Source: a virus. Taken from it: 28,286 nt of DNA. Below, piece by piece: positions 6,634-27,057 of this stretch (its first letter is position 1; the number at the start of each line of letters is the position of its first letter). A model generated the notes under the pieces. It had not been told where the DNA came from. It ran no database searches and worked only from the letters and a program-made list of their open reading frames with translations. The position numbers and the translations under genes are program-made. The stretch is from IMG/VR virus record IMGVR_UViG_3300047495_000053, positions 1-28,286 of that record. The stretch is one strand, 5' to 3'.

Positions 6634-7304
6634 TGGCCAGTAGGGTCGGTGGGCGACCGCCAACAAAGGAGCAAATCGCGGCGCTCACTGAGCTAGTCGC
6701 CGTGACAGACCTAAAGGACGCAGTCGAGAAGTCGATCGCGCATATCGAGGCGCAGCTCGACTTCAGCGATCGTGATGAGGGCTGGGCGCGCGGCGCCGTG
6801 AATGCGCTCGCTCTGCATCGGTATGCGGCCCGTCTGCTGGCGCGCAGGATCGCGCAGCTTCGCTCGCCGGATGAACCTGTGCGCCGCCCTCGAGAGGCCA
6901 ACGACGCGCTGACGAATTACGCCCTGGTCGAGCGGCCGACGTTCGATCCGGCGGCAAGCAGAACAATCGTCCACGTCGATAAGGTTCTACAGGAATTGAC
7001 AGATCTGATCGCGGCGATAGATCTCGATCGCGGGGATGAAATCGCCAACGGGCCCGGGCGACGGGACGAGGGCTTCCTTGCGATCACGAGCGGCATCCTA
7101 AAGCGCCTCCGCTGTGAACGTCACGAGCTCACGCTGCGGCGTGCTTCGCTGCTCAAGGATCAGCGGCAGACTGAGCACAGCATAAGGCAAGTCGGGCGCG
7201 AAAGCGCTTTCATCGAAGCCGCGCAGCTGGTCCTCGATCGCGAAACCTACCTTCGAGTGTGGGCGACGGCCGATCGGATAAGGTCAGAAAGCGCCGCCGC
7301 ATGA
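6630..7304 (+). CDS. hypothetical helical protein (224 aa)
   Basis: About 224 residues and almost entirely helical: an N-terminal segment rich in Glu and Leu (KEQIAALTELVAVTDLKDAV), a long Ala/Arg-rich centre, and a C-terminal helix pair (RCERHELTLRRASLLKDQRQ) that could form a coiled coil. No catalytic motif or family is recognised. The open frame extends upstream to 6204, but that part overlaps two other genes; ATG 6630 fits the operon's ATGA pattern (a second ATG follows at 6633). It is coupled by 4 bases to the downstream methylase gene. Confidence 0.65.
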   Translation: MMASRVGGRPPTKEQIAALTELVAVTDLKDAVEKSIAHIEAQLDFSDRDEGWARGAVNALALHRYAARLLARRIAQLRSPDEPVRRPREANDALTNYALVERPTFDPAASRTIVHVDKVLQELTDLIAAIDLDRGDEIANGPGRRDEGFLAITSGILKRLRCERHELTLRRASLLKDQRQTEHSIRQVGRESAFIEAAQLVLDRETYLRVWATADRIRSESAAA

Positions 7305-8149
7305 ACGCGCCCTTCAGACCCGCGCTGCGCTATCTTGGAGGCAAGTGGCGGCTCGCACCCAAGATCATCGCCCACCTGCCGCCGCATCGCGTCTATTGCG
7401 AACCCTATGGCGGGGCCGCCAGCGTGCTGCTGCGCAAGCCCCGGTCCTATGCGGAGATCTACAACGATCTTGACGAGGAGGTCGTGAACCTCTTCCGCGT
7501 CCTGCGAGACGAAGAGCTGGCGCAAAAACTCGTCCGGTTGGTCGAACTGACACCGTTCTCCCGCGCCGAATTCGAAGCGGCCTACCTGCCGGCGGACGGC
7601 CCGCTGGAGTCGGCTCACCAGCTGATTGTGCGATCCTTCAGGGGTCATGGATCGACAGCCGTGGGCAAGCGCAGCCGGACCGGCTTTCGCGCCGATAGCA
7701 ACAGGTCAAACACCACGCCCACCCACGACTGGGCCAACCTGCCGCCGGCGATCGGCGCGCTTATCGACCGGCTGCGCGGCGTGGTGATCGAGCGCCGGCC
7801 AGCGCTGGATCTGATCGCGCGCTTCGATACGGACGACACCCTCTTCTATGTCGATCCGCCATATCTCCAATCCACCCGAAGCCAGAAGAAGGCGCGGGGC
7901 GAGCTCGAGTGCGCCTATGGCCACGAGCTGACCGACGAAGACCATGCGGAGCTGCTGGAGCAGCTGCTGCATGTCCGTGGCCTGGTGATGGTCTCGGGCT
8001 ATCCATCGTCGCTCTACGACGACGCGCTCAAGGGATGGCGCCGGGTCGAGATGGACGCCCACGCCGATGGGGCGCGCCCCCGCGTCGAGGTGCTTTGGAT
8101 CAACCCCGCCGCCTGCGCGGCCCATGGCCTGTTTGGAGCGGTGGCATGA
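7301..8149 (+). CDS. D12-class DNA adenine N6-methyltransferase (Dam-like)
   Basis: This 282-residue enzyme has the D12/Dam-type order of motifs. YLGGKWRLAPKI near the N-terminus is the SAM-binding segment, CEPYGGAASVLL follows, YNDLDEEVVNLFRVLRD is the conserved Asn-Asp region, and YVDPPYLQ places the DPPY catalytic motif at about 185-188. It transfers a methyl group from SAM to adenine N6 in duplex DNA. The family length is normally 260-290, so it looks complete. No partner restriction endonuclease is adjacent, so it is a solitary phage methylase that may shield phage DNA or alter host gene control; the recognition site cannot be read from sequence. ATG 7301 overlaps the previous stop; the next gene overlaps its stop. 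Confidence 0.93.
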   Translation: MNAPFRPALRYLGGKWRLAPKIIAHLPPHRVYCEPYGGAASVLLRKPRSYAEIYNDLDEEVVNLFRVLRDEELAQKLVRLVELTPFSRAEFEAAYLPADGPLESAHQLIVRSFRGHGSTAVGKRSRTGFRADSNRSNTTPTHDWANLPPAIGALIDRLRGVVIERRPALDLIARFDTDDTLFYVDPPYLQSTRSQKKARGELECAYGHELTDEDHAELLEQLLHVRGLVMVSGYPSSLYDDALKGWRRVEMDAHADGARPRVEVLWINPAACAAHGLFGAVA

Positions 8150-8373
8150 CCGTGGCCGACAACATCGCCGACGACATGCTGGTCGGCGCGGAAGAGATCG
8201 CCCGAGTGCTTGGCTGGAAAGCTCGCCAAGTCTACGCCATTAGGGAGGTCGGGGGAGATGCGCCAGTCCGCAAGCGTAAAGGCCTGGGCCTTTACGCCTT
8301 CAAGAGCGAGCTCGTCGCATGGCTGACAGCCAGCGAGACTCTGCCGCATGCCGGCGACGGTCCCACCGCGTGA
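8146..8373 (+). CDS. small MerR/AlpA-type HTH protein, putative excisionase
   Basis: This 75-residue protein has a DNA-binding fold typical of excisionase-like proteins: DDMLVGAEEIARVLGW, then KARQVYAIREVG, and LYAFKSELVAWLTA, the usual 'wing then helix' end. Its position immediately before the integrase gene supports a role in directing excisive recombination, or as a regulator of int. The same fold is used by terminase small subunits and AlpA-type activators, so excisionase is an inference from context. The start overlaps the methylase stop (ATGA). Confidence 0.65.
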   Translation: MTVADNIADDMLVGAEEIARVLGWKARQVYAIREVGGDAPVRKRKGLGLYAFKSELVAWLTASETLPHAGDGPTA

Positions 8374-8407
8374 CCGCTGCGCACGATCATGCGTATCATC
8401 GACCCTG

Positions 8408-9652
8408 ATGGCCAACGTCCGAAAGATCGTCACCGCGCCACGGCGCGACGGCTCGACCAAGGTGAGCTGGCGCGCCACCTGGTCGTCGCCCGACGGCAAG
8501 CGCCAGTCGAAGAATTTCACCCGAAAGGGTGAGGCCGACGCATGGCTACGCGAGATCGCCGCCGGCCGGCAGGGCGGCTCGGCGACGATGACCGTGGCCG
8601 CTCTTGGCGCCAAACATCATGCCTGGTTCGATGGCTTGGTAAAGGCCGGGATCCGCGAGCCGGGGACGCTCGACGGTTATGCGACCGCACTGGACCTGCA
8701 CGTGGCGAGCGACGTCGCTTTCGCAAAGACGCGCCTGGCCGACCTCACCTCTCCAAAGGTCCAGCGTTTCCTCGACGACCTATTCCTGCGGGCAGGTTCA
8801 GCCGAGGTGGCTAAAAGGACGCGCAAGGCGCTCGTCGTCTGGTGCGGGTTTGGACAGCGCTCGGGCTGGCTGATCAGCAATCCCGCCGAGCCGTGCAAGG
8901 TCATGACGACTGACCGACCGGAAGAGGGCGATGAGCGGTGCACGTTACCGCCCAAAGCTCAGCTCGGCGCGCTGCTCGCGGCGGCCGAGGCTGGACCCTT
9001 TCCCATCCGCGACACCGCCGTGGTGCGCCTGCTCATGTTCGGCGGGCTCAGGATCTCCGAGCTGCTTGGGCTGGCCAATGATGCGGTAAAACCAGGCGCC
9101 AACGGCGGAGTCGTGGTGGGCGTGCGGGAGCGGCTGGAGCGCCGCCATGTCGTGCTCGGCCGCGTGAAGTCGAAGAAGGCCAGCCGGGATGTGCCGATGG
9201 GAGAGCTCGCCGGCCGCGCGGTGAAGGCTTGGCGGCTCTCCCGCGGGCCCGTCAAGGGGTTCGAACATGTTGCGTTGAACGGAACGCGGACGCGAGTCAC
9301 GGGACGCCTTTTTCCCAACCCGTCAGGCGGTGACCTTTGGAAGTACGACGACTTCGTCCGGGACTGCTGGTTGCCCATGATGGCCCGCGCAGGCCTGGTC
9401 GAATCGATCGCGGACAGCAAGGGCAAGAACCGGCCAACTCAGGCCTTCGGTCCCCACGCGATGCGCCATGTGGCTGCGAGTTTATGGATCGAGCAGGGCT
9501 TGGCGCCGAAGAAGGTCCAGGAACTGCTCGGCCACTCGACGCTCCAGCTGACCATGGATCTCTACGGTCACCTATGGCGCGACGACGAGCAGGACTATGC
9601 GCTGGCCCAGGCTTCAGAGGCCTTGATCGCTGTCGCCAAGACGACCGCCTGA
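8408..9652 (+). CDS. int: tyrosine site-specific integrase
   Basis: This 414-residue recombinase is of normal phage-integrase length. Residues 1-60 resemble an arm-binding beta domain (SWRATWSSPDGKRQSKNFTR), about 65-165 the SAM-like core-binding domain, and about 185-400 the catalytic domain. Active-site residues are visible: R215 in GGLRISELLG, H350 and R353 in PHAMRH, H376 in LGHSTLQLT and the nucleophile Y386 in MDLYGHL. The open frame extends to 8348, but that part overlaps the excisionase-like gene; MANVRKIV at 8408 is the likelier start, although no strong ribosome binding site precedes it. A tRNA-Leu 3' fragment lies 79 bases after its stop, the expected place for its attachment site. 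Confidence 0.95.
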   Translation: MANVRKIVTAPRRDGSTKVSWRATWSSPDGKRQSKNFTRKGEADAWLREIAAGRQGGSATMTVAALGAKHHAWFDGLVKAGIREPGTLDGYATALDLHVASDVAFAKTRLADLTSPKVQRFLDDLFLRAGSAEVAKRTRKALVVWCGFGQRSGWLISNPAEPCKVMTTDRPEEGDERCTLPPKAQLGALLAAAEAGPFPIRDTAVVRLLMFGGLRISELLGLANDAVKPGANGGVVVGVRERLERRHVVLGRVKSKKASRDVPMGELAGRAVKAWRLSRGPVKGFEHVALNGTRTRVTGRLFPNPSGGDLWKYDDFVRDCWLPMMARAGLVESIADSKGKNRPTQAFGPHAMRHVAASLWIEQGLAPKKVQELLGHSTLQLTMDLYGHLWRDDEQDYALAQASEALIAVAKTTA

Positions 9653-25989: not shown

Positions 25990-26475
25990 ATGGTGGGGGG
26001 AAATGTGAAACGGCTTTTGGCGATATTGGTGCTTGCCACGATGCTTGCAGGGTGCGCAGTCGCCCCGATGCAATTAGCAGTGGACAAAAATAGGACGATT
26101 CCAGCAACTAAGGATCAGGTATGGGAGCGTGTGGTTGAGTTCTTTGCCAGTAACAACATTTCGATAAAAACCATAGATAAGACAAGCGGGATTATCTATG
26201 CCGAACGCGCAGCTGGCGCGGGTGAGACTTTTATGCAATGGGCAGATTGCGGTGGGAATTATTTTGAGACACCGCAGCGACGACTTCTCGACTTGAACGT
26301 CTTTGTGCGTGAAGTCCCAAACGGAACGAGCGTGACCGTAAACGTGCACGTTCAGGAGGTACGCACAAGCGCGCTCAATAGAATGGTCACCGATACGGTG
26401 GAGTGCACCAGCGTCGGCACCCTCGAAAAGGCAATACTTGACGTTGCAAGCGGCTCACCAAATCCAGCCGGCTAA
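25990..26475 (+). CDS. lipoprotein moron (candidate lysogenic conversion gene)
   Basis: This 161-residue protein (from ATG 25990; GTG 26005 is an alternative) has a lipoprotein signal: KRLL, hydrophobic AILVLATM and a lipobox LAGC, with Cys at about residue 22 and no Asp at +2, which favours the outer membrane. The mature part starts with PATKDQVWERVVEFFASNNI, then SGIIYAER and LLDLNVFVREVPNGTSVTVN, reminiscent of a helix-grip/BamC-like fold; that is only a resemblance. It is the only plus-strand gene in the tail module, lies between the chaperone and tape measure genes, and is about 50% GC by hand count. That pattern is classical for a moron expressed from the prophage; its effect on the host is unknown. 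Confidence 0.8.
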   Translation: MVGGNVKRLLAILVLATMLAGCAVAPMQLAVDKNRTIPATKDQVWERVVEFFASNNISIKTIDKTSGIIYAERAAGAGETFMQWADCGGNYFETPQRRLLDLNVFVREVPNGTSVTVNVHVQEVRTSALNRMVTDTVECTSVGTLEKAILDVASGSPNPAG

Positions 26476-26482
26476 GTAAAAT

Positions 26483-26728
26483 CTAGCTCAGCTCGGCCAG
26501 CATCGCCTCTAGCTCGGCGCGCTCGTCTTTCGTGAGCGACCCCGCCTTGGGCTCATTAGAGCAGTTGGCGCGGCGCCAGCCGGCGAAGAGGCGGTTGAAC
26601 TGCCAGAGGCTGAGACGTCCAACGTCTGGGATGCCGATGGCGCCGGCGACCTCGTAGATAACGCCGAAACGGATTCGTCCACAGGGGAGAGGCTCGGCGT
26701 CGTCTCCCCCGTTGGCTCCCCCGGCGGA
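26483..26728 (-). CDS. -1 frame extension of the tail assembly chaperone (frameshift product, gpT-like)
   Basis: In the frame one base back from the chaperone gene, a stop at 26731-26729 is followed by an open frame to TAG at 26485-26483. It contains no ATG, GTG or TTG near its start, yet reads like protein: FGVIYEVAGAIGIPDVGRLS, then LWQFNRLFAGWRRANC and TKDERAELEAMLAELS. This resembles small tail assembly chaperones of the Phage_TAC class. If ribosomes slip back by one at the GGGGGAG heptamer, the fusion is 191 residues (114 from the first frame, 77 from this one). In siphoviruses such as lambda, the G/GT pair works in exactly this way during tail tube assembly around the tape measure. Confidence 0.75.
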   Translation of the reverse strand, partial: SAGGANGGDDAEPLPCGRIRFGVIYEVAGAIGIPDVGRLSLWQFNRLFAGWRRANCSNEPKAGSLTKDERAELEAMLAELS

Positions 26729-27057
26729 TCATCTTCGTCACCGACGACGCAGGCCATCAAGACCAGCTGCACGGTCACCAGGCTGTCGCCGAGGGGATTA
26801 CGCTCGGTGTCGAAATAGCGCTCGACCAGACGCAGGGCCTCGTTGGGCGACATGCCGCCGCCGATCAGCCCAAGGCGCAAGACCTCGCGTAGCTGCCGCG
26901 ACTTCCAATTTCCGCTGATGCCCTGGCTGACCAGGCCGAGCAGGTAACCCGGCCCGACTTTGCAGAGATCGTCCAACTCGTCGAGCTCGGCGATTCCGAG
27001 CCGGAAATCGCAGCGCCGGCCCGCGAAGGCGGCGCTGACCTTGGCGGAGCGTGACAT
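26509..27057 (-). CDS. tail assembly chaperone (GTA gp10-like, Phage_TAC_11 type), gpG-like product
   Basis: This is a 182-residue zero-frame product. Residues 1-105 match the gene-transfer-agent gp10 / tail assembly chaperone type: CDFRLGIAELDELDDLCKVG, then GYLLGLVSQGISGNWKSRQL, REVLRLGLIGGGMSPNEALR and LVERYFD. After residue 113 the sequence becomes low-complexity (SPVDESVSALSTRSPAPSAS), as expected when the other frame carries the selected sequence. It holds the tape measure protein ready for tube polymerisation in the cytoplasm. The start overlaps the tail tube stop (TGATG). Downstream in the transcript comes the tape measure gene, after the inserted opposite-strand moron. Confidence 0.85.
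   Translation of the reverse strand: MSRSAKVSAAFAGRRCDFRLGIAELDELDDLCKVGPGYLLGLVSQGISGNWKSRQLREVLRLGLIGGGMSPNEALRLVERYFDTERNPLGDSLVTVQLVLMACVVGDEDDPPGEPTGETTPSLSPVDESVSALSTRSPAPSASQTLDVSASGSSTASSPAGAAPTALMSPRRGRSRKTSAPS
26683..26722 (-). promoter_or_regulatory. programmed -1 frameshift signal (slippery heptamer, spacer, stem-loop)
   Basis: On the minus strand G-GGG-GAG (26722-26716, codons 113-114) is followed by a 5-base spacer (26715-26711) and a stem of 8 bp (GGGGGAGA 26710-26703 with TCTCCCCT 26690-26683, one G-T pair) around a 12-base loop. A second G-GGG-GAG copy forms the start of the stem. The P-site Gly codon re-pairs perfectly after a -1 slip; the A-site Glu codon does not, so efficiency could be modest. 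Confidence 0.65.

Follow-up and report, generated by a model that had tools for sequence, protein, structure and literature searches.

Comparative evidence for a programmed -1 ribosomal frameshift in a lambda G/GT-like tail-assembly chaperone gene of the Phage_TAC_11 family

We conclude, with a probability of about 94%, that the locus at 26483-27057 of the window, by which we mean the whole 28,286-nucleotide stretch of viral DNA analysed here, encodes tail-assembly chaperones in the manner of lambda G/GT, by way of a programmed -1 ribosomal frameshift. A sequence-only reading had proposed that such a frameshift joins two chaperone parts, and the proposal is supported by the arrangement found in 113 of 116 loci, by in-frame fusions among the relatives, and by missing start codons. 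This comparison of sequences is the main support for the frameshift and the strongest of all lines of evidence.

The two overlapping chaperone frames were confirmed, all on the minus strand. The zero-frame open reading frame (ORF; 27057-26509, 182 amino acids) encodes a Phage_TAC_11 (GTA-gp10 type) chaperone: it matched PF11836 in a Pfam profile search (E=1.9e-15), with a score of 57.1 bits against a gathering cut-off of 27.8 that places it in the family, and it also matched phrog_8985 (E=2e-29). The chaperone itself comprises residues 1-114 and is followed by a 68-amino acid tail rich in Ser, Pro, and Ala. The zero frame had been described as turning low in complexity, and it does so beyond Gly113 (GGG) and Glu114 (GAG), which are encoded by a slippery heptamer at 26722-26716. 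Base composition agrees with this transition. The GC content by codon position is.69/.43/.84 in the zero frame before the junction, and past the junction it is.68/.52/.80 in the -1 frame and.55/.78/.70 in the zero frame. This comparison of both frames, which the earlier reading had suggested, showed that the pattern switches to the -1 frame at the junction. The length of the zero frame counts against the frameshift reading: it extends 211 nt beyond the slip site in the window, compared with 34-118 nt in the other 112 frameshifted loci, so that the unshifted product would nearly equal the fusion in length.

The -1 frame opens behind a TGA at 26731-26729, and its ORF (26728-26483, minus strand), which encodes a T-like COOH-terminal domain, consists of 81 codons plus a stop and would contribute 77 amino acids after the shift. 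The frameshift product predicted by comparison is thus 191 amino acids long (114 + 77), corresponding to join(27057..26716, 26716..26483) on the minus strand with base 26716 read twice. The segment had been regarded as a well-formed protein that lacks a start codon, and it is indeed a conserved domain, hereafter the C-domain, with the consensus DDLPNGKxRFAAIYGxGAAMGFTPQQVNxMSMWQFxAAxxGYxxAN. It gave E=2e-27 with a profile that includes the segment itself and E=3e-6 with the independent phrog_18467, which is the only catalogued family found for the C-domain and whose 50-residue profile starts near an internal Met. No Pfam entry was matched by the C-domain in the profile search. A structure model obtained with AlphaFold2 from the window segment and 41 relatives showed three helices, with a mean pLDDT of 78 and a pTM of 0.50; a Foldseek search with this model of BFVD and the PDB returned no significant structural match. 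The model indicates that the segment is probably a folded domain, not noise.

For comparative analysis, we assembled 115 related loci from phages, IMG/VR, and prophages, which together with the window gave a sample of 116. Annotated phages (L001-L010) were gathered by tblastn, and further scans led to IMG/VR contigs and bacterial genomes. Single-protein scans of IMG/VR with the window fusion, or with its tail-tube protein, yielded zero relatives, and the sequences of a nine-row alignment (A1) diverged too far for it to serve as a query, for which a closer relative and an alignment of three rows were taken instead. Profiles of the N- and C-domains detected both domains in all 116 loci. When chaperone genes of related phages were aligned in this way, as had been suggested from the sequence, the C-domain was found to lie in the -1 frame in 113 loci and in one frame with the N-domain in 3. 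An in-phase slippery heptamer is present at the junction in all 113 frameshifted loci, although most loci were found through similarity to both domains jointly and the loci are related, so that these are not 113 independent events. A partly blind check was provided by L154, which was fetched via a different tail gene (DUF6950) and which also contains TAC_11, the C-domain in the -1 frame, and an in-phase GGGGGAG.

The heptamers in the 113 loci are GGGGGAG (86 loci), GGGGGAA (14), an A-run (10), GGGAAAG (2), and GGGAAAT (1), whereas the background of in-phase slippery sites amounts to 8 in 11,074 upstream codons and 1 in 5,650 C-domain codons. When "fused" was counted as a fourth class, 11 changes of heptamer class were obtained on the N-domain tree, many forks of which are poorly resolved and the well-supported branches of which force fewer than 11. 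The class thus changes repeatedly on the tree, so that what has been conserved is slipperiness and not one inherited sequence. Clean in-frame fusions without a slippery run are found in Rhizobium phage RHph_X2_26, as a single annotated coding sequence of 573 nt (190 amino acids), and in L028. The third in-frame case, L031 from IMG/VR, was set aside; close to the junction its NH2-terminal part is also shifted in frame, which points to indels in a gene that looks broken or mis-sequenced.

Two explanations that dispense with ribosomal slippage bear on these data. Homopolymers are prone to error, and an indel introduced into the G run by sequencing or assembly could disguise an in-frame fusion as a frameshift, an appearance that L031, which resembles an indel-broken copy, would fit. 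The same -1 layout, however, recurs in 113 loci derived from isolates, IMG/VR contigs, and bacterial genomes and with differing slippery sequences, and we regard such an error as scarcely credible. The frames might also be joined not by the ribosome but by RNA polymerase, through transcriptional realignment on a homopolymer, for which the runs of seven to nine A in L006, L007, and L077 would be suitable. Merely five G are present in the window and 99 other loci, however, and GGGAAA is present in three; efficient polymerase slippage is not known on runs as short as G5 or GGGAAA, and this explanation is therefore extremely unlikely.

The -1 segment might instead be a separate small gene, with initiation that is its own or is coupled to the zero-frame stop, in the manner of gene transfer agents (GTAs), and free-standing small ORFs are indeed annotated in several relatives. 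In the window, the first ATG, GTG, or TTG of the -1 frame is an ATG near the end of the ORF, with none being usable ahead of the domain. Nearly the whole domain precedes the zero-frame stop, which is only 26 nt short of the end of the -1 ORF, so that re-initiation there is impossible. No possible ATG, GTG, or TTG start for the -1 domain exists in 103 of the 113 frameshifted loci, the window included. The starts annotated for the small genes of X2_25, TM3_3_14B, 16-3, and MseS-P1 are located inside the conserved C-domain and would truncate it. That phrog_18467 and the small genes of L002, L003, L004, and L008 begin inside the C-domain is attributable to the frameshift having been missed in annotation. 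The only annotated relative with a plausible additional start is Labrenzia phage vB_LagS-V1, in which a GTG overlaps the zero-frame stop. A separate gene would also leave the conserved slippery sites unexplained, and, even though the second chaperone gene starts independently in all 27 resolved GTA-like loci, at the TAC_11 stop or close to it (see below), we consider it very unlikely for the window. A free-standing -1 gene in relatives had been named in advance as evidence against a frameshift; such a gene is characteristic of true GTAs but not of most phage relatives. The frameshift reading also implies that annotations of TAC_11 pairs are wrong, either giving a "tail tube protein" and a truncated hypothetical protein or overlooking the second part. 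A further tail-chaperone-like pair was observed in L157 (5302-5482 and just upstream), seemingly with a -1 frameshift at an A-run shortly before the zero-frame stop (LSEAAEKK, then stop).

Returning to the frameshift and its signals, the heptamer, 5-base spacer, and 8-bp stem proposed for the junction are all present on the minus strand. The first in-phase G GGG GAG (26722-26716), whose position and phase are homologous in 113 of 113 frameshifted loci, is likely the main site of the -1 shift. It is followed by the 5-nt spacer CCAAC (26715-26711) and by a second in-phase G GGG GAG 12 nt downstream (26710-26704), which also forms the 5' arm of the stem and which may be a second-chance slip site or merely a stem arm. 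The pair is unlikely to be a chance occurrence: on its minus strand, the 28-kb window has GGGGGAG at just these two positions, 26722 and 26710, and in-phase GGGGGA was absent from all other tail-module genes scanned (eight genes, 4,121 codons altogether). A second copy at +12 is also present in L090, L096, and L101. The window heptamer departs from the strict X XXY YYZ pattern, which is frequent in chaperones of the lambda G/GT type without being obligatory; GGGAAA or an A-run is present in 13 relatives.

The predicted hairpin (26710-26683) has 8 bp, one of which is G.U, and a 12-nt loop, with GGGGGAGA (26710-26703) pairing with TCTCCCCT (26690-26683). The 45 nt past the heptamer gave a folding energy of -20.2 kcal/mol (z=-2.7 relative to dinucleotide shuffles), whereas 60 nt gave only z=-1.4, and the hairpin of the window is thus only modestly significant. 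Across relatives, the mean z was -0.98 for RNA downstream of the heptamer and +0.16 and -0.10 for upstream windows; control windows in the C-domain had means of -0.12 and -0.71, and the latter, at +150, fold well too, a point against the frameshift reading. No shared or conserved hairpin was found in the relatives folded, and the stem-loop noted from the sequence, although present in the window, is not retained as a particular stem. What the relatives keep, as judged by predicted folding, is only a general tendency to structure downstream of the heptamer.

In the mechanism that we infer, which extends to the occurrence of the shift in cells, its efficiency, the details of tRNA pairing, and the roles of the chaperones, most ribosomes would stay in the zero frame and produce the 182-amino acid "G" chaperone, consisting of the TAC_11 domain and a disordered tail, and a minority would step back by one base at G GGG GAG. 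Re-pairing of the P-site tRNA-Gly, from GGG to GGG, would be perfect. In the A site, tRNA-Glu would exchange GAG for GGA, with the outer pairs being kept and the middle one becoming G.U if its anticodon is UUC; this re-pairing is imperfect, which is a point against the frameshift reading. It is equally possible that the slip would precede occupancy of the A site, in which case the residue after Gly113 would be Gly rather than Glu. The hairpin, which is suitably spaced 5 nt downstream, and possibly also the second in-phase heptamer, would aid slippage, and slipped ribosomes would yield a 191-amino acid "GT" protein with the conserved helical domain at its end. By analogy with lambda, G might coat the tape-measure protein and the COOH-terminal domain of GT might recruit tail-tube subunits at a set ratio.

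The genes are arranged in the order major tail protein, tail-assembly chaperone, and tape measure. The major tail protein gene (27650-27057, minus strand; PF06199 and phrog_13196) directly precedes the chaperone gene, and the tape-measure gene (25921-22559, minus strand) is next in the tail module past one gene on the opposite strand. The latter is a lipoprotein-like gene (26005-26475, plus strand; MKRLLAILVLATMLAGCAVAP...) with weak NlpB/LPAM matches and for which a search for a phage homologue found none. A small opposite-strand gene was observed at the same place in L002 (2075-2392), L003 (2059-2286), L004 (2072-2365), L009 (2084-2251), and L010 (2036-2203). The window also contains repressor-like (345-782), DNA-methyltransferase (7259-8149), and integrase (8348-9652) genes, which mark it as a temperate phage.

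Tail chaperone 1 of the RcGTA type (g10, PF11836) belongs to the same Pfam family as the N-domain of the window, and the two chaperone genes of these agents are adjacent. Unlike the window, however, chaperone 2 (PF09550 type) has its own start in the 27 resolved GTA-like loci (Haematobacter family). The statement that the GTA genes are separate therefore holds for 27 of 27 such loci but not for most phage relatives of the window. The start of the second gene is located at the TAC_11 stop or close to it, and relative to TAC_11 this gene is in the -1 frame in 19 of the 27 loci and in the +1 frame in 8. A first scan of these junctions covered only G5A, A-run, and GGGAAA heptamers; a repeat covering all X XXY YYZ sequences and five-base runs, in which a different upstream ORF was chosen automatically at a few loci, revealed an in-phase run at a few junctions but none as a shared feature. 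At one GTA locus (L137), where the second gene is in the -1 frame, an in-phase GGGGGAA lies 10 nt short of the TAC_11 stop; this sequence may be the remnant of a frameshift. The C-domain of the window gave no Pfam match to TAC_6 (PF09550), and a relation between the two was undetectable with hhalign (score of 10, compared with a median of 9.4 and a maximum of 18.9 for the shuffled null).

In three phages, the second domain is of the GTA-like TAC_6 type and lies in the -1 frame, and a canonical heptamer directly precedes the zero-frame stop: A AAC CCT in L158 and L159, both of which also have a TTG overlapping that stop, and A AAA AAG in L160. Set against the independent starts of GTAs, these heptamers suggest that GTAs uncoupled the chaperone pair. 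Given that three phages are a small sample and that the C-domain of the window is not detectably related to TAC_6, we put forward only tentatively, and with some doubt, the idea that domestication of phages into GTAs uncoupled a TAC_11 frameshift. The sequences would then suggest that GTAs replaced slippage with an independent start, often in an ATGA overlap and in either frame, and such uncoupling, if true, would mean that slippage of the ribosome no longer sets the proportion of the two chaperones. The natural series of G5A, A-run, GGGAAA, in-frame fusion, and separate GTA gene bears on why slippage has been kept and whether GTAs lost it.

The lambda G/GT arrangement, with its conserved -1 frameshift in tail-assembly chaperone genes, was reportedly described by Levin in 1993 and by Xu, Hendrix, and Duda in 2004. 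As in lambda, the window pair is situated between the genes for the major tail protein and the tape measure, the second frame has no start of its own, and a small chaperone gene is predicted to give a short and, by a -1 shift, an extended product, with an in-phase slippery sequence in the overlap that is conserved across the relatives of the window. GGGAAAG, present in two relatives, is the heptamer of lambda itself. Unlike lambda, the window has G GGG GAG, a TAC_11 domain together with a C-domain that has no Pfam entry, and a long zero-frame tail past the site. The joining of two chaperone parts by a low-level -1 shift is an established feature of lambda and is widely conserved in long-tailed phages (PMC5009743).

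GGGGGAG had been called unusual, which does not hold for its class or for its second copy, given the three other loci with such a copy and about a thousand annotated actinobacteriophage frameshifts with a "fivetwo" motif that are recorded as GGGGGAA (PRFect, PMC10274946), sites that also depart from strict X XXY YYZ (PMC10274946). A chaperone frameshift of the GGGGGAA type has also been proposed for corynephage phi16 (PMC5506516). The window resembles these sites in having five G followed by A, a -1 shift, and a tail-assembly chaperone gene, but differs from them in having GAG instead of GAA, relatives that are mostly alphaproteobacterial phages, and a chaperone of the TAC_11 family. The p015/p016 pair of Rhizobium phage 16-3 is homologous to the window pair and also has an in-phase GGGGGAG, but it is annotated as two genes, with p016 starting near the internal Met of the C-domain. 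A comparison of RcGTA, MseS-P1, and phage 16-3 presented chaperone 1 and the gene downstream of it as two distinct genes, with no mention of frameshifting (PMC11409702), and no description of a frameshift in the TAC_11 group was found in the partial selection of literature covered. The mechanism and the heptamer class are already known, and the TAC_11 group is a new instance of the lambda G/GT arrangement, with which the tail-chaperone frameshift reaches the TAC_11 (GTA-gp10) family of rhizobial and other alphaproteobacterial phages.
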